Of a DNA stretch of 36,154 bases, positions 7,020 to 16,172 are shown one piece after another. How positions within the stretch are numbered: the first letter of the stretch is position 1; the number at the start of each line of letters is the position of its first letter. This DNA comes from Acidimicrobiales bacterium (GTDB taxonomy: Bacteria > Actinomycetota > Acidimicrobiia > Acidimicrobiales > UBA8592). Below the pieces are notes generated by a model. The model was not told where the DNA came from. It was given only the letters and a program-made list of their open reading frames with translations, and did not search any database. The translations under genes were made by a program, and so were the position numbers. The stretch lies in assembly GCA_029244605.1 (NCBI GenBank), contig JAQWQL010000016.1, positions 1 to 36,154 of the forward strand, in the 5' to 3' direction.

Positions 7020-7097
7020 ACCACAATTAAAATTTCCGTGTTTGCTTTTGAACTGCAATTATAGAAATACCACTTGAAGAAGACCTTTGGAGGAACG

Positions 7098-7598
7098 GTG
7101 CCCTACACCCCAGAACAGTTATCAGATCGCGAAGATATACGTGATGCAGCTATGCGTTATTGCCGCGGCGTTGACCGCCTCGACCCTGAATGCATGAAAT
7201 CAGCCTATTGGCCTGACGCAACAGACGACCATGGAAATTTCAGCGGAAATGCTCATGAATTCGTCGACTACTGTATGAAAGCGCACCTCCGGTGGAAATG
7301 GACCATGCATTCCATCTATAACCATCAAATCGAACTCGACGATGATGGCGTCCATGCACGCGGAGAAATTTACAACATCTCGCACCTATGTAGGAAAGAC
7401 ACTGGAGAGGTTGACACATGGTACGGGCGGTATCTGGATCGTTATGAGAAGCGTGATGGAGAATGGAAAATCCTAGAACGTGTATGCGTTCACCATGGCA
7501 CGCAAGTAATAGATGCTTCACCTATGCCGATGCAAACGAGTCGATACCGTGGCGGGTCATTTGACCGGCCGGCAAATGGTCGTCCAGTAGGTCCTTAA
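7098..7598 (+). CDS. SnoaL-like/NTF2-fold protein
   Basis: This 166-residue protein has the cone-shaped NTF2-like fold: 'LSDREDIRDAAMRYCRGVDRLDPECM' type first helices, 'YWPDATDDHG' and the C-terminal 'GRYLDRYEKRDGEWKILERVC' strands. SnoaL_4 members act as small isomerases, hydratases or ring-hydroxylating dioxygenase beta-like proteins. The start is GTG 7098, because GGAGG at 7089-7093 sits 4 bases before it; the upstream TTG at 7074 would put the ribosome site inside the gene. A related protein lies at 16169 (shared 'RG(V/I)DRLDE/P' motif). It precedes the enoyl-CoA hydratase by 49 bases. Confidence 0.85.
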   Translation: MPYTPEQLSDREDIRDAAMRYCRGVDRLDPECMKSAYWPDATDDHGNFSGNAHEFVDYCMKAHLRWKWTMHSIYNHQIELDDDGVHARGEIYNISHLCRKDTGEVDTWYGRYLDRYEKRDGEWKILERVCVHHGTQVIDASPMPMQTSRYRGGSFDRPANGRPVGP

Positions 7599-7647: not shown

Positions 7648-8412
7648 ATGGTATTTGAAACACTCACAGTCGTCATAGAAGAGGACATTGGGAAATTAAC
7701 CCTCAACCAGCCAGATAAGTTAAATCCATTGGGAACGAACACGCTTCAGGAAATCATCGACGCGACAGCATGGTTCGATGAACAAAAAGTCCCTGTCGTG
7801 ATCATCAGCAGTCGAGGACGTGCGTTTTCTGCAGGGTTTGATCTGCGTGAATTCACTAATCCCAATCAAGGTGGGAAAAATGGTGCAGCACTTGGGAAAC
7901 AAATGGCTGACGCTATAGAGAACATGAACGCAGTAGCCATCGCAGCCGTGCATGGCCATTGCATCGGTGGGGGAGTTGTCCTCGTCGGTGCATGTGACCT
8001 ACGGATCGCGGCAACGAATACAAGTTTCTCTATTCCAGAAATCGACCTTGGCATTCCTCTGGCTTGGGGAGGGATCCCTCGCCTCGTTCGTGAGATCGGC
8101 CCCGCCATGACGAGAGAACTTGTTATGACCTGTAGGCCGTTCACTGCTGAGGAAGCGAAATCTATAGGGTTCATAAATCGGATCGTTGACATAGCTGAAC
8201 TGGAGCAAGAAGCACTCGACATGGCTGCATCCATCAGCCAGCGACCCCAATCAGTCATCCAAACAACGAAACGACAAGTGCAAAGCGCAGCCGAGGACCT
8301 CGCATCAACCCAAAACGAATGGATTGGCGAAATATTGATCGATGCTGCCGGCCAGAATAAAGAAGCGAGACTATCAGCGCAAAAATACCTTGAAGGAAGG
8401 AAGAGCAGCTAA
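7648..8412 (+). CDS. Enoyl-CoA hydratase/isomerase (crotonase family)
   Basis: At 254 residues it is normal crotonase length. The oxyanion-hole segments are 'GRAFSAGFDL' (about 57-65) and 'HGHCIGGGV' (about 102-110), followed by 'DLRIA' and 'PEIDLGIPLAWGG'. Of the two glutamates that hydrate enoyl-CoA in rat crotonase, the second is kept (E131, in 'PEIDLG') but the first position is Val (V111). A simple hydratase activity is therefore uncertain, and isomerase or other CoA-thioester chemistry is possible. No Shine-Dalgarno sequence precedes ATG 7648. It is followed 62 bases later by the transporter operon, so co-transcription is possible. Acts in the cytosol on acyl-CoA. Confidence 0.88.
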   Translation: MVFETLTVVIEEDIGKLTLNQPDKLNPLGTNTLQEIIDATAWFDEQKVPVVIISSRGRAFSAGFDLREFTNPNQGGKNGAALGKQMADAIENMNAVAIAAVHGHCIGGGVVLVGACDLRIAATNTSFSIPEIDLGIPLAWGGIPRLVREIGPAMTRELVMTCRPFTAEEAKSIGFINRIVDIAELEQEALDMAASISQRPQSVIQTTKRQVQSAAEDLASTQNEWIGEILIDAAGQNKEARLSAQKYLEGRKSS

Positions 8413-8474
8413 GAAAAGATTGGCGCACCCACACACATGTGAAGCGAAATGTCGTCAGAAGAGAAGGGGGGAGA

Positions 8475-10553
8475 ATGAAAAACGAACAAGCCATAAGCGC
8501 CCATACGACAGATACTTTTTCGTGGATGATTCCCCCAGCGATTCTCCTCATTATTCAACAAATTTTTTGGAGAACTCCGTATGGCGCTGTCCTACAGGGA
8601 ATAATTCTTGGTCTGCTCACAAGCCTCGTCGCTATCGGCATCGTCCTTATCTACCGCTCAAACCGGGTTCTAAACTTCGCTCAGGCAGAAGTCGGTCTTT
8701 TGCCAACTGTTCTTAGCGTAATGCTCATCGTGGAATCCGGATTCCCGTATCTCGCGGCTTTCGCTATAGGCCTTGTTGGGGCAGCCCTTCTCGGTGTCAG
8801 TTCGGAATTTCTCGTCGTTCGAAGATTCTCAAGAAGCCCTCGACTGGTCTTGACGGTCGCAACCCTAGGCCTAGCCCAGACACTAGTTTTTTGGGCGATC
8901 CTTATGCCAGACTGGTGGGGAAGTGGAGTGACCTCACAACGCATCGACTCACCACTAAATATCCAATTCGATTTTGACAAATTCCGCTTCAACGATAACC
9001 ACATCATCGTTATCGTCGTTGTCCCGCTTATCCTTCTTGCAGTAGGCGCAATACTCCACCGCACCCGCCTGGGTACCGGAATCAGAGCGGTAGCAGAAGA
9101 CTTCGACCGATCAGGCATGCTTGGTATACCCGTATACCGGTTACAAAGCTTCGTGTGGGGGCTTGCCGCCGTGCTGGCCTTCCTAGCTCTATTTCTACGC
9201 TCCAGCATCTTCGGTCTTCCAGTAGGCGGTCAACTCGGTGTTCTATTTTTTCTCCGTGCATTGACTGCTGCGGTAGTGGGAAAACTAACTGACCTAAAAA
9301 CAGTCTTATTGACATCCGTGGTCCTTGGGATTCTCCAACAAGGAATCATATGGAACACAGACAGCCCAATGCGCGGGAATGCTCTCATGGCAGCGGTATG
9401 CGCTGCGGTTATCCTTCTTGCTCTCGTCGTCCGACCTCAGATATATTCCCGATTCGCGAACCTCAGTGAAGCTATCTCCATGGGGGAAACACGGCCTATC
9501 CCTCCTGAGCTTAGAAACAGAATAGAGATTCAAACGACAAAGTTCTTTCTGGGGGTGATCAGTCTCGTTCTCCTTGCAGCTATCCCATACTGGTTCGGGA
9601 CAGTTAATACTCTCCGATTCTCTGCCTTATTCATCTTCACCATCCTCTTATTGTCGCTCGTAGTACTTACTGGATGGGCAGGACAGATATCCCTTGGCCA
9701 AATGGCGTTCTTCGCTGTTGGGTCAGTAACCGCCGGTAAAATGATCATCGAGTGGAATATGGATCTTATCCCAGCGATCCTCCTATCGGGAATTGTCGGT
9801 ATGGGCCTCGCACTCGTTGTTGGCCTGCCGGCGCTTCGGATTCGAGGACTGTATTTGGCGGTGACGACCTTAGCTTTCGAACTCGCAATGATCAGCTACT
9901 TCCTAAATCGAAGATTCTTTGACTGGGTCCCATCATCCTCAGATCGTGTATTGCGGTTACCCATCTTCGGCCAAATTGAGTATTCCTCAAGCAGAGGAGT
10001 GTACTTTGTTAGCGTCGTAGCTCTCATTATCGCATTTGCAGCGATCAGAGGCTTACGAAACAGCCGAACAGGTAGGGTCCTGCTCGCCCTACGCGACAAT
10101 GAACAAGGTGTATCCGCATACGGAGTAAGTGTTATGAGGGCAAAATTGATGGCATTTGGAATCGCTGGATTTCTTGCCGGTTGCAGCGGAGCTCTCTTTG
10201 TCGTCCATCAACAATCTTTCTCAGGTACTGGGCAAGGCTTATCCATCAGAATTTTCATCTCAGCGATAATAGGAGGAATAGGGTCAGCGTTGGGCGCTTT
10301 CCTCGGCTCGTTATTCCTTTGGGGAACCATATGGTGGCTCCGCGGCAGCTGGTTTTTTCTCGCAACAGGATTCGGAATTCTCGTCGTGTTATTGATCGCC
10401 CCCGGTGGTTTAAGTTCTTTCCTCTTCCGTTTCCGAGATTGGCTTCTAACGCTGTTCGCCAACAGGAAACAAATCAAAGTCCCGAGCCTAATCGCCGATG
10501 ACCAAATACCTGATGCATCCACACCAACAGTAGGGGCGGACAATGAAAGCTAG
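8475..10553 (+). CDS. Fused LivH-LivM permease of a branched-chain-amino-acid-type ABC transporter
   Basis: Both membrane subunits of a HAAT-family importer are in one chain of 692 residues. Residues about 15-320 are LivH-like (segments 'LVAIGIVLIYRSNRVLNFAQAE' and 'RAVAEDFDRSGMLGI'). After a polar linker ('ETRPIPPELRNRIEIQ'), about 350-650 are LivM-like ('LTGWAGQISLGQMAFFAVG', 'RIRGLYLAVTTLAFELAM', 'RVLLALRDNEQGVSAYGV'). Each half carries its own EAA-like coupling loop. The start is ATG 8475, with a GGGGGGAG ribosome site just upstream; an in-frame ATG at 8439 lacks one. The gene overlaps the next by 11 bases, so the two are translationally coupled. Such permeases import amino acids, amides, urea or aromatic/short organic acids; the cargo is unknown. 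Confidence 0.92.
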   Translation: MKNEQAISAHTTDTFSWMIPPAILLIIQQIFWRTPYGAVLQGIILGLLTSLVAIGIVLIYRSNRVLNFAQAEVGLLPTVLSVMLIVESGFPYLAAFAIGLVGAALLGVSSEFLVVRRFSRSPRLVLTVATLGLAQTLVFWAILMPDWWGSGVTSQRIDSPLNIQFDFDKFRFNDNHIIVIVVVPLILLAVGAILHRTRLGTGIRAVAEDFDRSGMLGIPVYRLQSFVWGLAAVLAFLALFLRSSIFGLPVGGQLGVLFFLRALTAAVVGKLTDLKTVLLTSVVLGILQQGIIWNTDSPMRGNALMAAVCAAVILLALVVRPQIYSRFANLSEAISMGETRPIPPELRNRIEIQTTKFFLGVISLVLLAAIPYWFGTVNTLRFSALFIFTILLLSLVVLTGWAGQISLGQMAFFAVGSVTAGKMIIEWNMDLIPAILLSGIVGMGLALVVGLPALRIRGLYLAVTTLAFELAMISYFLNRRFFDWVPSSSDRVLRLPIFGQIEYSSSRGVYFVSVVALIIAFAAIRGLRNSRTGRVLLALRDNEQGVSAYGVSVMRAKLMAFGIAGFLAGCSGALFVVHQQSFSGTGQGLSIRIFISAIIGGIGSALGAFLGSLFLWGTIWWLRGSWFFLATGFGILVVLLIAPGGLSSFLFRFRDWLLTLFANRKQIKVPSLIADDQIPDASTPTVGADNES

Positions 10554-13413
10554 ATTTGAACGTGTCGTTGGTTCAGGCCCGGTGTATCCGATGCTTATCT
10601 TATTCGGCCTTAACGCGGTCGATGAGCTAGACCGAACCGCTTTCGCAATACTCGCCCCAGAAATCCGAGATGAATTCGGACTAGGTTTTCAGGGGTTGTT
10701 GACTCTCGCTGGTGTTGTCATCGCTTTTGCTCTCGCCCTACAAGTCCCTATCGCAGGGTTAGCGGACAAGATGAATAGGGTACACCTCGCAATAATTGGC
10801 GCCTTAGTGTGGGCAATTTTTTCTTTCATGACTGGCCTAGCCACGTCGATAATCTTTCTCGGATTCATGCGCTCAGGTTCGGCTATAGGGAAAGGCGTTA
10901 TTGACCCGACACATAACTCGTTATTAGCTGACTGGTACGAACCTAGCCAGCGACCCGCCGCTTACTCCTTTCATCGAGCTGGAAACTCTGTAGGAATTAT
11001 CTTTGGAGCGCTCTTTGCCGGACTTTTAGGATATTACTTTAGCTGGCGAGTCCCATTCTTTATCTTTGCTATACCTACCGTTGTTCTGGCTTTCTTAGCC
11101 TTACGGTTGAAAGAACCAGTTCGTGGCCGATTCGAACGAGAAGCCGCAGGCGCCGATGAAGAAGCAGCAATGCTCGCCGAAGAACCACCATCGATGACCG
11201 AAGCTTGGCGTTTATGTTGGAAAGTAGAAACACTTCGCCGAATTTTTATGGCTATGCCCTTCCTAGCCATATCAATTGTAGGTTTCGGAGTTCTTGCTTC
11301 GCTATTTTACGAAGATGTTTTTGGCCTTGATGAACGCGCGCGCGGATTCATCGCAGCCGGTGTAGAACCAGCACAACTCCTCGGCCTGATGGTCGGCGCC
11401 GGCCTAGGGGTAAAGCTCGTGTCTCGCGACCCGTCACTCATTTTACGCCTTCTTGCAGTTGCAGCATTCGTAGGTTCGGTTTTCGTCGTCGGCTTCGCAT
11501 TGTCACCAACGGCATGGATGGCCGTAGGTTTCAGCGCCCTCATTTATTTCTCTTTCGCTATTCTTGGACCAGGCCTTATCGCTGCCCTCTCCCTAGCTAT
11601 TCCGCCTCGCGCCCGAGCAATGGGCTTCAGCATGGGGGCACTTTGGGCTCTCCCGGGGCTCTTCGCTCTCCCACTTGTAGGTTGGGTGGGCGACAAATGG
11701 GGAATCCGAGCAGGAATGCTAATCATGACTCCGATTCTTCTAGTCGGGATGTTCATCATTAGTTCTGCTGCATCAGGTATCACCAGAGATATCGAGCAAG
11801 TTCGGTCTTCCGCTAGAGCACGCAGTGAAGCTGCACTCGCACGCAAAAAAGGAGAAGCAATGCTTCTCCTCACGAGAGATGTGCAAGTCAGTTATGACAA
11901 AGTACAGGTTCTTTTCGGTATAGATATCGACATTGGGGAGGGAGAAATCGTCGCCCTCCTCGGTACTAACGGGGCTGGAAAATCAACACTTCTGAAAGCT
12001 ATCTCAGGAGTAACCGAAGCTGAACGAGGAGCTATTGTTCTTGACGGACGCGATATCACCCACGCTCCCCCTAATGAAATAGCTGCTTTAGGAATAGCGC
12101 AACTCCCAGGTGGACACGCAATCTTTCCAAGCCTCACCGTTAAGGAAAACATTGAGGCTTCTCAGTGGCTTTCAAATACAGAAAAGAAATCAGACCTAAG
12201 CGAAGTAGAAGAATCTTTGCAGCTCTTCCCAGAAATTATGGAACGGTGGAACGACCCCGCAGCGAACCTCTCGGGAGGGCAACAGCAAATGCTCGGGTTA
12301 GCAATGGCTCTCCATAGCTCACCAAAGGTATTGATGATAGATGAACTCTCCCTCGGGTTAGCTCCTGCTGTTGTAGAGAGGATCCTTCCAGTCGTGAAAC
12401 AAATAGCGGCAAACGGAACAGCCGTCATTATTGTCGAGCAATCAGTCAACCTTGCCTTAACGATCGCCGAACGTGCCTACTTCATGGAAAAAGGGACAAT
12501 CCGATTTAGCGGTTCAACAAAAGATCTCCTAGATCGACCAGACTTACTTCGTTCCGTCTTCCTCAGCAAAATAGAAGCGACACCTATTCGGACACCGGAG
12601 ATACCAGAATCAACCGGGGAGCTCGCCCTCCAAGCAGATGAACTCTCACGACGGTTCGGAGGTATACAGGCAGTAGCTTCGATTTCGTTCGCTGTCCAAG
12701 AGCGAGAGATTATCGGAATTATGGGGCCAAATGGAGCTGGGAAAACAACATTATTTGATCTCTTAAGCGGATTCGTCCCAGTTGACAGCGGAACAGTGCA
12801 CCTCGCTAATCGTGATATAACAGGTTCCAGCCCTTCGGAACGAGCCCGCTACGGCCTCGGCCGGTCCTTTCAAAATGCGAAGCTCTTCCCTTCGCTTACA
12901 GTTGCAGAAACTATCGCTGTCGCCCTTGAACGTTTCACGACAGCCCGCGACCCTGTCTCCGCGGCCCTCTACCTTCCTCGATCATACGAAAGTGAGAAAC
13001 GCGTCAACAGTCAGGTATCAGAACTTATTGAAGTGATGGGATTAAGTGCATACGAGAACAAATTCATTGGGGAACTCTCCACCGGAACCCGAAGAATGGT
13101 AGATCTCGCATGCGTTATCGCTCATCGTCCACTCGTTGTTCTCCTTGATGAACCTTCTAGCGGTATAGCACAAAAAGAAGCAGAAGCACTTATCCCTGTC
13201 CTCCGAAGAATCCGAGAAGAAATGGGATCTTCACTCGTGGTCATAGAACACGATATTGGCCTCCTCTCAGAGATATCAGACCGATTCATAGCTTTAGACC
13301 AAGGATCGGTGATAGCTCGGGGCGCGCCCGATGAAGTCCTCAATAACTCCCTCGTCATCTCTTCATACCTCGGGACCTCAAAGGCAACAATTCAGCGAAG
13401 TGGAGAGATCTAG
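10543..13413 (+). CDS. Three-domain fusion: MFS carrier + LivF-like ATPase + LivG-like ATPase
   Basis: One uninterrupted 956-residue frame. Residues about 10-410 are a 12-helix MFS carrier ('GLADKMNRVHLAIIGALVW', 'SLLADWYEPSQR', 'SWRVPFFIF'), closest in feel to spinster/sugar-phosphate-type carriers. Residues about 440-670 are a LivF-like ATPase: Walker A 474-482 (GTNGAGKST), signature LSGGQ 576-580, Walker B ending at E601. Residues about 695-945 are a LivG-like ATPase: Walker A 728-736 (GPNGAGKTT), divergent signature LSTGT 845-849, Walker B LLDE 867-870. The ATPases should energise the LivHM fusion upstream. The role of the MFS part is unknown. Inside the gene GGAG at 11851-11854 precedes an in-frame ATG at 11860 (residue 440), exactly where the first ATPase begins, so a shorter ATPase-only product is plausible. 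Confidence 0.92.
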   Translation: MKARFERVVGSGPVYPMLILFGLNAVDELDRTAFAILAPEIRDEFGLGFQGLLTLAGVVIAFALALQVPIAGLADKMNRVHLAIIGALVWAIFSFMTGLATSIIFLGFMRSGSAIGKGVIDPTHNSLLADWYEPSQRPAAYSFHRAGNSVGIIFGALFAGLLGYYFSWRVPFFIFAIPTVVLAFLALRLKEPVRGRFEREAAGADEEAAMLAEEPPSMTEAWRLCWKVETLRRIFMAMPFLAISIVGFGVLASLFYEDVFGLDERARGFIAAGVEPAQLLGLMVGAGLGVKLVSRDPSLILRLLAVAAFVGSVFVVGFALSPTAWMAVGFSALIYFSFAILGPGLIAALSLAIPPRARAMGFSMGALWALPGLFALPLVGWVGDKWGIRAGMLIMTPILLVGMFIISSAASGITRDIEQVRSSARARSEAALARKKGEAMLLLTRDVQVSYDKVQVLFGIDIDIGEGEIVALLGTNGAGKSTLLKAISGVTEAERGAIVLDGRDITHAPPNEIAALGIAQLPGGHAIFPSLTVKENIEASQWLSNTEKKSDLSEVEESLQLFPEIMERWNDPAANLSGGQQQMLGLAMALHSSPKVLMIDELSLGLAPAVVERILPVVKQIAANGTAVIIVEQSVNLALTIAERAYFMEKGTIRFSGSTKDLLDRPDLLRSVFLSKIEATPIRTPEIPESTGELALQADELSRRFGGIQAVASISFAVQEREIIGIMGPNGAGKTTLFDLLSGFVPVDSGTVHLANRDITGSSPSERARYGLGRSFQNAKLFPSLTVAETIAVALERFTTARDPVSAALYLPRSYESEKRVNSQVSELIEVMGLSAYENKFIGELSTGTRRMVDLACVIAHRPLVVLLDEPSSGIAQKEAEALIPVLRRIREEMGSSLVVIEHDIGLLSEISDRFIALDQGSVIARGAPDEVLNNSLVISSYLGTSKATIQRSGEI
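11851..11862 (+). promoter_or_regulatory. Internal ribosome site and ATG at the MFS/ATPase boundary
   Basis: AAAAAAGGAG followed after 5 bases (AAGCA) by ATG, in frame, at residue 440 of the fusion. It could let the two ATPase domains be made without the MFS carrier, giving the usual two-ATPase-per-permease stoichiometry. It might also be the fossil start codon of a once separate livF gene. Confidence 0.5.
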
Positions 13414-13470
13414 TTTGCTTGGAACAAAATTCGTACTAACGTCCACTGGAAGAGCTATCGGGGGGTAAGC

Positions 13471-15342
13471 ATGGAATCTGCACAAGGTGAAGTAGAAACT
13501 TCGGGGGTATCAGCGCTAAAGAAATGGGGCCCTCTAGGCCTTCTTGTCGTAGCCGCTGTTGTAGTGATTATTGTTGTCGTATCCGGCGGTGGAGGTAGCG
13601 ACGATACTGCGAACGAAACCGGTTCGACAGCATCGTCCGAATCTTCCCAAGCCGAATCCACAGAAGAGAGTTCAGCCGATGCGCAAGAGGAAACCTCAGA
13701 AGCTACTGAAGTTGAAGAAACTCAAACAGCTGAAGAGGAAACTCCCGTTTCGGAAGACTGTCCTACTGCTGGTGATGCAAGAGATGACTTGCTGGATGGA
13801 GTGATGTTTTACGAAGAGGCAGTGACTCGTTGCATCGCTGATGGCATCGAGTGGGGAGAGCGCTGCGACGAAGAAACTGGCCTGCTCAAACTACCGACAT
13901 CAAACCCCCCGGCATGTTTCGCTCCTTTTGAAGGAGACAACGGAGGAGCAACAGCACGTGGGGTAACGGAAGATTCCATCAATATTGTCTACTGGCGCTG
14001 GCAGGAGAATGACTTCATCCTCAAGTACATTACCGGCCCAATAGCGAACGATGACACCAACGCTGACGCCGAAGCAAGCTTGCGCGGCATGTTAGAATAC
14101 TATGAAACGTATTACGAGACTTACGGTAGGTCCGTCAATCTTATCTTCTATGAAGGTACAGGGCTTATAAGCGACGAAGTCTCAGCACGAGCTGACGCTG
14201 TAAAGATCGCCGAAGAGTACGACCCCTTTATGGTGTGGAATGGTCCGACTTTGACTAATGCATTCGAAGATGAACTTGTTTCGCGCGGTATAGCTTGCCT
14301 TAGTTGCGGACCATCACAGGACATAGAGTATTACCGTGAAAATGATCCACTTGCGTGGGCTTTTGGTATGAGCGCTGTCCAAGCGAACCTAATAGCTTCA
14401 GAATATGTTGGGAAGCAACTAGCAGGAAGGAACGCCGTCTATGCCGGCGATCTCGACTACCAAAATCAGCCCCGAGTCTTTGGGAGGCTGTGGATCGAGA
14501 GCGGAGAAGCATCTGTCCAAAACGAAGGAGATTTTGAAGATAATCTCGCAGAATATGGAGTTGAAGTAGTTGAATCCGTTGCCTTTACGCTTGATCCCGC
14601 CAGCTTGCAAGAACAAGCATCGTCGGCAATTGCTAAGTTCAAGGCAGCTGGAGTAACAACCGTAATGTTCTCTGGTGACCCGATATCGCCTCGAGATTTC
14701 ACTCGTGAAGCAACAGCACAAGGGTATTACCCTGAATGGGTACATATTGGTAGCGTTCTTGCCGATACAAATATTTTTGCCCGAACGTATGATCAAGATC
14801 AATGGGCAAATGCCTTTGGCATCACCACTCTTTCAGCAAGGGTCGACCCAGCTATAAGTGGAGCACCCTTCCGCTACAAGTGGTTCTTCGGAGAAGCTGC
14901 CCCAGCAGATGACTCTCTGGGAGTCATCGATCCGTGGCCAGCTACGTTCTACCCGATCATCCAGGGTATTGGACCTGACTTGACATATGAGAATTGGAAA
15001 ACAGCCCTAGATAGTGCAGACCCAACCCGCCAAGGATTAACATCCGGCTCATTCTCCTGGGGTGAAACTGGAAGATGGCCAGCGGAATTGGAATATGACT
15101 TCTTCGGAGGCGATGACGTGACCGTCTTCTGGTGGGATGCAACCAAGGAAGGTTTTGATGAAGCTGACACTCTCGGACCTGGTATGTATTTCTTCGCAGA
15201 TGGTGGTCAACGTTACCTATTCGGCGAGATTCCTGAGGAGGACATTGTTCTCTTCGATCGGGAAACGGCTTCCGATATCTATATGGAATGGCCTGAAGGT
15301 GAAGCACCCAATGAGTATGATCCTCTACCATCTGGTGGATGA
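13471..15342 (+). CDS. Membrane-anchored LivJ-type substrate-binding protein
   Basis: A 623-residue extracytoplasmic binding protein for the HAAT transporter. The N-terminus has one hydrophobic helix (about residues 20-38, 'LGLLVVAAVVVIIVVV') preceded by KK and followed by GGGGS, with no lipobox Cys. It is therefore probably a membrane-tethered form rather than a lipoprotein. About 50 residues of Ser/Glu/Thr linker follow, then a Cys-containing segment (DCPTAGD...CDEETG...PPACFAPF) that probably makes disulfides. The periplasmic-binding domain starts at about residue 160 ('GVTEDSINIVYW'). It is longer than E. coli LivJ (about 370). The ribosome site is GGGGGG, 5 bases before ATG. Its stop overlaps the next start (ATGA). 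Confidence 0.9.
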   Translation: MESAQGEVETSGVSALKKWGPLGLLVVAAVVVIIVVVSGGGGSDDTANETGSTASSESSQAESTEESSADAQEETSEATEVEETQTAEEETPVSEDCPTAGDARDDLLDGVMFYEEAVTRCIADGIEWGERCDEETGLLKLPTSNPPACFAPFEGDNGGATARGVTEDSINIVYWRWQENDFILKYITGPIANDDTNADAEASLRGMLEYYETYYETYGRSVNLIFYEGTGLISDEVSARADAVKIAEEYDPFMVWNGPTLTNAFEDELVSRGIACLSCGPSQDIEYYRENDPLAWAFGMSAVQANLIASEYVGKQLAGRNAVYAGDLDYQNQPRVFGRLWIESGEASVQNEGDFEDNLAEYGVEVVESVAFTLDPASLQEQASSAIAKFKAAGVTTVMFSGDPISPRDFTREATAQGYYPEWVHIGSVLADTNIFARTYDQDQWANAFGITTLSARVDPAISGAPFRYKWFFGEAAPADDSLGVIDPWPATFYPIIQGIGPDLTYENWKTALDSADPTRQGLTSGSFSWGETGRWPAELEYDFFGGDDVTVFWWDATKEGFDEADTLGPGMYFFADGGQRYLFGEIPEEDIVLFDRETASDIYMEWPEGEAPNEYDPLPSGG

Positions 15343-16172
15343 CCGACTTTAGCCTTCATCCCTGGAATGAAACATTCGAATGGAGTGATGCTTCAGCGCG
15401 CACGGGCTATTTGAGTCAGGAACAGGTCAACAAATATAATGAAGAGGGTTTCTTGCTTTTGGAAGAGGCTCTAGACATGGAGCAACTTCGAGTTGTCATC
15501 GAGTCGTTGGATCAATTAGCGCAAGAAACTGACACTTTTCTCCAAACCCTTGAAGATGAACGGCTTTCCATAGCAGAATCTGGAGCGATCCTCTTTGGGA
15601 TTCACCCTTGTCTCAGGTCGGAGTCGGTAAAGAAATTTATTTCCCAGCAGCCCTTTGTTGATATCTGTTATGACCTTATTGGCCCAAATGTCCGACTGTA
15701 CTGGGATCAACTCGTGTACAAACAGGTAGAGAAACCTCGTAGATTCCCATGGCATCAAGATAACGGGTATGGGTTTGTCGAACCTCAACAGTACCTCACA
15801 TGCTGGATTCCTCTAGTGGATGTCCATATCGAAAATGGATGTCCTTGGATAGTTCCTAAAGTCCATCGAAAGGGAACGCTTTCCCATGAGTATGTAGACC
15901 CTTTAGGGTATGAATGTTTCGCCGATCATCCAGATGCTGTCCCAGTCGAAGCTAAGGCAGGAAGTATCGTCATCTTCTCATCGCTGACTCCCCATAAAAC
16001 CGGGCCAAATATCAGCGGAGAAACGAGAAAAGCGTATATTGTCCAATACGCGCCAGACCATGCAAAGTTATTGCATGGGGAACCCCAAGCAGGGCCGCCA
16101 GAAAACAAGGTCCCAGCAGACGAATCTGAGCGCCAATTTCCGATTTTAGTAGATGGTGTTATAGCGATCTAG
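15339..16172 (+). CDS. Phytanoyl-CoA dioxygenase (PhyH) family protein
   Basis: A 277-residue Fe(II)/2-oxoglutarate oxygenase. The iron triad is H139-x-D141 ('WHQDNGY') and H219 ('TPHKTGPN'), with R230 placed to bind 2-oxoglutarate ('RKAYIVQYAP'). PhyH relatives hydroxylate acyl-CoAs, phosphonates, ectoine precursors and many secondary metabolites. Its ATG overlaps the stop of the binding-protein gene (ATGA), so it is translated with the transporter. The natural inference is that it hydroxylates the imported compound or its first product. The 3' end overlaps the convergent gene at 16169 by 4 bases, leaving no room for a terminator. Confidence 0.9.
   Translation: MTDFSLHPWNETFEWSDASARTGYLSQEQVNKYNEEGFLLLEEALDMEQLRVVIESLDQLAQETDTFLQTLEDERLSIAESGAILFGIHPCLRSESVKKFISQQPFVDICYDLIGPNVRLYWDQLVYKQVEKPRRFPWHQDNGYGFVEPQQYLTCWIPLVDVHIENGCPWIVPKVHRKGTLSHEYVDPLGYECFADHPDAVPVEAKAGSIVIFSSLTPHKTGPNISGETRKAYIVQYAPDHAKLLHGEPQAGPPENKVPADESERQFPILVDGVIAI

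Follow-up and report, generated by a model that had tools for sequence, protein, structure and literature searches.

The window analysed here, a stretch of 36,154 nucleotides, is one contig (JAQWQL010000016.1) of the 1.69-Mb, 76% complete marine metagenome-assembled genome (MAG) of an Acidimicrobiales bacterium. It encodes a solute importer of a kind that normally takes five genes, here condensed into three proteins (two fused membrane polypeptides and a receptor), followed by a gene for a PhyH-type dioxygenase. Comparison with related genomes revealed that the importer architecture is real, conserved, and under-described, and that the oxygenase is a recurrent but optional partner. The reading which we cautiously favor, by a modest degree of confidence, is that of a hydrophobic amino acid uptake transporter (HAAT)-type importer paired with a presumably co-translated PhyH enzyme, which would hydroxylate the imported cargo or one of its early products.

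Anatomy of the locus and identity of its products

The importer and the enzyme are encoded by the following genes, which include a fusion with a major facilitator superfamily (MFS) transporter domain:

8475..10553, + strand: LivH-LivM permease fusion (P0001); two PF02653 stretches, 171 bits
10543..13413, + strand: MFS-LivF-LivG fusion (P0002); Pfam, NCBIfam, motifs, MFS alignment, and residue survey
13471..15342, + strand: substrate-binding protein (SBP) of predicted LivJ/LivK fold (P0003); AlphaFold model and PDB fold matches
15339..16172, + strand: predicted PhyH-type Fe(II)/2-oxoglutarate dioxygenase (P0004); PF05721, 3e-25

The original prediction had described two fusions, an anchored LivJ, and a PhyH gene with exact spacings, and this anatomy was confirmed to the base. 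The LivHM and MFS-LivFG genes overlap by 11 bases, 57 bases separate the MFS-LivFG gene from the SBP gene, and the SBP and PhyH genes share an ATGA overlap on the same strand. The LivHM open reading frame spans 8439-10553; a GTG start at 8439 is possible, and the ATG at 8475, with the purine-rich AGAAGGGGGGAGA upstream of it, is preferred. A consensus scan found 3 promoter-like sites against 10.2 in shuffles, and 22 terminator-like sites against 9.0.

P0001 contains two BPD_transp_2 (PF02653) stretches over the cut-off, corresponding to LivH- and LivM-type permease domains. In P0002, Pfam recognizes MFS_1 (residues 21-363), two ABC_tran domains, and BCA_ABC_TP_C, which gives a layout of MFS domain (~15-415), LivF-type nucleotide-binding domain (NBD; ~441-674), and LivG-type NBD (~696-945). 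Walker A, Walker B, and signature motifs are present in both NBDs, the signatures being LSGG and, in the second, LSTG. The permease pair, the LivF/LivG-type NBDs, and a receptor of predicted LivJ/LivK fold place the system among the HAAT importers. The NCBIfam cut-offs for the branched-chain LivFGHM proteins were missed (LivH 53/379, LivM 69/366, LivG 281/362, and LivF 250/441 bits), as were those for the urea importer proteins UrtB (73/250), UrtC (79/296), and UrtD (296/304). The UrtE cut-off was passed (314/286), and so was that of LptB; both were discounted, as the whole-protein score sums two NBD stretches.

P0003 is predicted to have a LivJ/LivK-type fold. Its Pfam match stays below threshold (Peripla_BP_6, 21 bits; cut-off 31.7), and a PDB sequence search with P0003 alone found no useful match (best E 0.38). 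The best PDB matches of its AlphaFold model (predicted local distance difference test (pLDDT) 72.8, residues 1-109 disordered) are LivJ/LivK-type and aromatic-acid binders, with Z of 18-19.5 over ~330 residues at ~4 Å. This structure search yielded a fold and no ligand, with aromatic-acid, leucine, and other binders tied. The N-terminus has one hydrophobic stretch (~22-40), no lipobox, and a long acidic and Ser-rich linker before the folded part. The receptor had been described as membrane-anchored instead of a lipoprotein, which is correct for the window but is not a special trait, since a lipobox-type start replaces the transmembrane anchor in 6 of 14 genus SBP loci (among L046-L059). These six loci are the starred clade of the importer tree, where they account for 6 of 13 genus rows (L055 represents G012). 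The anchor is also found in relatives outside the genus (L091 and L110, for example), which makes the lipobox form look derived. By what is established for lipoproteins, either type of N-terminus should tether the receptor outside the membrane of a Gram-positive bacterium.

P0004 is a predicted Fe(II)/2-oxoglutarate dioxygenase of the PhyH superfamily. It matches PF05721 with 90 bits (cut-off 22), and the iron triad (H139, D141, and H219) and the 2-oxoglutarate arginine (R230) are invariant in 15 aligned rows. Its model (pLDDT 84.1) reaches PDB Z values of up to 23.8 to 2-oxoglutarate hydroxylases; in this structure search several hydroxylase classes were tied and no substrate was indicated.

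Distribution of the fused importer and its MFS domain

It had been proposed that the fusion is out of the ordinary; among the organism's kin this was not borne out. Relatives of P0002 were detected in 40 of 60 near genomes (E <= 1e-60), in 72 of 397 order genomes (E <= 1e-240), and in 18 of 296 phylum genomes (E <= 1e-100); the last count includes the own genome, other classes, and some part-length matches. With codon-based gene calls, 20 order-level loci all have the MFS-LivF-LivG gene and 19 have the LivHM fusion adjoining it; at L066, the one locus without a full LivHM, the contig begins inside LivM. Loci with the two-fusion importer are spread over the order and further classes of Actinomycetota; the architecture is therefore old as well as widespread. 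Word matching in one open-access library listed no paper relevant to the MFS-LivF-LivG fusion.

The same MAG also encodes two separate-gene systems (C39 and C74) and three further LivHM fusions (C21, C63, and C100). At C100 (L040 2261-7293) the parts are split otherwise, the first gene encoding LivH-LivM-LivG and the second MFS-LivF. Apparent single-chain importers of 1,700-1,870 amino acids were rejected as out-of-frame extensions in high-GC DNA, for which codon-based calls return the usual two genes. Distant fused importers have housekeeping or other neighbors (DnaG, RF3, GlpX, TetR, and MoxR-DUF58-transglutaminase). At L066 (4050-8705) such an importer lies by genes for a MoxR-type AAA protein, DUF58, and a transglutaminase core, and the MoxR-type gene also occurs in L076 and L077. 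The record titles of L083, L124, L129, and L157 say Euryarchaeota, Acidobacteria, or Bifidobacterium breve; their sequences group with Acidimicrobiia-like MAGs, and these are probably mislabeled bins.

Judged from its conserved residues, the MFS domain fused to the ATPases is most likely still a functional transporter and not a relic. P0002 matches the MFS_1 profile with 133.9 bits against a cut-off of 33.4. In a residue survey of 103 rows of fused importers, D75 and R79 occur in every row, and D27 (95), E28 (96), R31 (92), H144 (95), and R267 (102) in most. A rather unlikely alternative is that the domain is a non-transporting anchor or docking part which tethers the LivF-LivG ATPases to the membrane by LivHM. 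LivHM already gives a full permease helix set, and a simple hydropathy scan counts 11 peaks in the MFS part, not 12, both of which would suit a tether. However, a mere tether would be expected to drift, whereas here charged and polar positions within the membrane or close to it are conserved, the motif-A-like residues are intact, and MFS identity tracks NBD identity, slightly below it (68/76/72% in L091).

Linkage of PhyH to the importer

The original prediction had coupled the PhyH enzyme to the importer. Within the genus, PhyH follows the SBP gene directly in 15 of the 15 genomes with sequence there (G000-G008, G010, G012-G015, and G017). Eighteen genus genomes were examined; G011 stops within the SBP gene, and G009 and G016 show no SBP or PhyH orthologue. 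PhyH is under purifying selection, with nonsynonymous to synonymous rate ratios (omega) of 0.040-0.075 in 3 of 12 pairs, the synonymous divergence (dS) being saturated in the other 9; the SBP-PhyH adjacency thus persists after synonymous saturation in most pairs. In G017 the PhyH gene (L058 14468-15314), close to the end of its contig, is broken into two reading frames by a frameshift or an assembly error.

Outside the genus, 80 loci were scanned with a PhyH profile, which found 20 of 20 test regions that were also its training set. Three arrangements emerged. PhyH follows the SBP gene in L091 (4-base overlap), L190, which equals L099 (1-base overlap), and L200 (13 bases apart), and also in L107, L201, and L202, where a second, opposite-strand PhyH lies between. 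It lies upstream, overlapping the LivHM start by 4 bases, in L095, L102, L106, L110, L112, and L126. It is divergent in L143 and, with one gene between, in L142 and L152. The importer-linked orthologues are 45-56% identical, compared with mostly 20-30% for other PhyHs of those genomes. In the PhyH tree all importer-linked PhyHs fall in one clade (100/100). Within it, one group (96/94) unites the genus with L091/L217, the f54 rows, and L203, a row without linkage, and the upstream (100/95) and divergent (100/99) sets are each monophyletic.

The frequency of this link was read from an importer tree of 103 rows (a quick tree version), comprising 13 genus rows, 37 undecidable ones at contig ends, and 53 decidable ones. 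L046, in which the MFS part is missing, was skipped, and L080-L090, L092, and L099 were omitted because they duplicate genus loci or loci already counted under a G number. Some distant importers that are paralogues are among L060-L079. Of the 53 decidable non-genus loci, 13 have PhyH adjoining the importer or separated from it by one gene, 1 has it near (L185), and 39 have none. Since L200 and L185 entered through a PhyH-based search, which biases the count, 12 of 51 is the fairer figure. In the 30-row clade around the window, 7 decidable non-genus rows have PhyH and 2 do not. If chance is set generously at 1% per locus, p is 6e-15 for 13 of 53 and 2e-4 for five independent origins, rough values that ignore descent. 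Across 381 non-genus genomes of the order, both genes occur in 23 against 6.9 expected (Fisher p = 9e-10, uncorrected for descent).

Several results weigh against a strict coupling. The 39 of 53 loci without PhyH indicate that the importer does not need it, and the distant importers are also without it. Ilumatobacter, a relative in culture, has the importer (L094), beside which no PhyH orthologue was found. Conversely, 20 of 43 non-genus genomes with a PhyH orthologue have no P0002 match at 1e-240. Only 4 of the 23 two-gene genomes have PhyH and importer within 3 kb on one contig; in 1 they are 6 kb apart, G171 and G341 are linked through an SBP gene followed by PhyH at a contig start, and the distance is 2.8 Mb in G156 and 0.8 Mb in G223. 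Many PhyH orthologues adjoin other genes instead. In 40 loci around such orthologues, where Pfam checks of neighbors covered 10 proteins from 9 loci, these were GH3 (L185 and L191), an arabinofuranosidase C-terminal domain (L180 and L183), AceK (L203), and RPE65 (L207). Within the genus, synteny largely extends to the broader catabolic region around the block, so adjacency there is weak evidence by itself. Lastly, NCBIfam ties neither the transporter nor PhyH to a specific substrate, and in one group of relatives the importer has apparently been exchanged next to a retained PhyH.

This exchange is seen when L106/L110 are compared with L102/L112. The flanks, with an S-methyltransferase, a coenzyme A (CoA) ligase, and, where present, a luciferase-like gene, are 82-87% identical, compared with 67-73% for PhyH, 63-65% for the amidohydrolase beside the SBP gene, 57-60% for MFS-LivFG, 49% for the SBP, and 40-42% for LivHM. 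L106 is short, and the flank and SBP identities rest on fewer pairs. On one quick tree and the pairwise identities, the simplest reading has all three importer genes exchanged together and the overlapping PhyH retained. On this reading PhyH and the flanks were kept, so that PhyH can outlast a particular importer.

It could therefore be argued that PhyH is part of a catabolic island, sharing the importer transcript and acting on another metabolite, so that the two are co-regulated with no compound handed over. The apparently swapped importer, the many other neighbors of PhyH orthologues, and the catabolic-type genes on both sides of the genus block are as this explanation would have it. It fits less well with the three arrangements in which PhyH is linked, six loci having the same 4-base overlap on the importer's other side, or with L091, which keeps PhyH though the genus-type neighbors are gone. 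We regard it as doubtful, while deserving serious weight. Coupling of PhyH to the importer thus stands as a non-random association that is invariant where it could be seen in the genus, and not as a general rule: homologous operons without PhyH, which had been named as grounds for refutation, occur among the more distant relatives and not within the genus. On comparative sequence evidence, the PhyH-importer link is real but limited.

A survey for conserved crotonase and SnoaL partners had also been suggested. Their genes precede LivHM in 10 of 10 genus loci reaching that far:

7074..7598, + strand: SnoaL_4-domain protein (Pfam 9.6e-22), a partner within the genus only
7648..8412, + strand: enoyl-CoA hydratase/isomerase family protein (crotonase; Pfam ECH_1, 5e-48), a genus-level partner

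Both are absent even in L091, the closest non-genus relative, and as conserved partners beyond the genus they were rejected. The genus block also holds, on both sides, hydrolases, SnoaL, a molybdopterin oxidoreductase, Rieske, amidohydrolase, and luciferase-like genes.

Some further neighbors of PhyH orthologues were recorded. The orthologues overlap or abut glycoside hydrolase genes in L185 (9737-12963), L191 (6883-9896), and L180 (7404-9691), which is a hint as to substrate, and at L180 the gene of another Peripla_BP_6 receptor adjoins. A homocysteine S-methyltransferase-family gene lies beside the upstream PhyH in L110 (4913-5905), and also in L102, L106, and L112 (83-87% identical).

Proposed mechanism and known systems

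In the favored reading, that of import followed by hydroxylation, the importer would consist of two membrane polypeptides (LivH-LivM and MFS-LivF-LivG) and a membrane-tethered LivJ-type receptor. The receptor would catch an organic solute outside the cell, and LivHM with the fused LivF/LivG ATPases would pump it in, the direction being that expected of the family. PhyH would then hydroxylate the solute or an early product, as the recurrent linkage and overlap suggest, and neighboring catabolic enzymes may take over afterwards. Through the MFS domain, the same ligand or a related one could enter by another route, or a product could leave. It had been suggested that the cargo is hydroxylated as soon as it is imported; the linkage argues for the association, and hydroxylation of the cargo itself is what we infer from it. 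A more elaborate version, which we consider unlikely, is a two-mode hybrid of MFS and ATP-binding cassette (ABC) transporter. The ABC part would import a scarce solute, PhyH would hydroxylate it, and the MFS part would exchange or export a product or take up the same ligand when abundant, such that ATP- and gradient-driven transport are coupled in one protein.

The nature of the cargo was also considered. An amino acid or betaine-like osmolyte, whose hydroxylated product is kept rather than degraded, as with ectoine and proline hydroxylases, seems improbable to us. The structural neighbors of PhyH do include proline hydroxylase H11, GriE (leucine), and EctD, and leucine is often bound by HAAT receptors. 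However, polyketide, mycosporine, and phytanoyl-CoA enzymes are tied with them in fold similarity (Z within about 1 to 3), P0004 scores 37.7 on the NCBIfam EctD model, whose cut-off is 336.5, and several relatives have catabolic neighbors (acyl-CoA dehydrogenases, CoA ligase, and P450). The neighbors of importer and PhyH loci vary between lineages.

With the HAAT systems (LivFGHMJ and UrtABCDE) the locus shares LivH/LivM permease domains, LivF/LivG ATPases, and a receptor of predicted LivJ fold. It differs in its fused permeases and in its two ATPases, which form a single chain with an MFS transporter, and no specific equivalog is properly matched. Similarly, P0004 shares its predicted fold, iron-binding triad, and 2-oxoglutarate arginine with PHYHD1, SnoK, MysH, the H11 proline hydroxylase, and EctD of the PhyH superfamily; these are ~13-25% identical to it in fold searches, and it reaches no equivalog cut-off.

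The own genome contains another cluster of this kind (G000:C109; L045 6241-14968), where a nucleoside importer of Bmp/PnrA type precedes a different PhyH, an adenosine deaminase, a HAD hydrolase, and Indigoidine_A (PsuG-like). It is possibly an operon for uptake and oxidation of modified nucleosides. The order of importer then PhyH hence occurs twice in this genome.

An ABC importer and an MFS transporter also serve one pathway in Rhodococcus jostii RHA1, where, according to an excerpt of the source, CamABCD and CamM both take up cholate metabolites (PMC8399759). Unlike the locus, these are separate proteins for different metabolites, and the excerpt does not mention PhyH. For an importer with a 2-oxoglutarate dioxygenase, an excerpt on E. 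coli tauABCD describes both in one operon, with import followed by oxidation (PMC6906117). TauABC-TauD is thus a working precedent for the locus, with the difference that TauA is a class II binding protein whereas the receptor here is predicted to have a LivJ fold. To our knowledge, TauD is not a PhyH-family enzyme, and tauABCD has neither fusions nor an MFS domain.

The MFS-ABC ATPase fusion, kept across classes of Actinomycetota, raises the question of whether a single protein can combine primary with secondary transport. Recurrence of PhyH as a partner offers a handle on the cargo, since the receptor ligand should be, or become, the PhyH substrate, and likewise on which parts of dissolved organic matter are taken up by abundant uncultured marine Acidimicrobiia. 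Coupling of import to 2-oxoglutarate-dependent oxidation, the core idea, is already known from TauABC-TauD.

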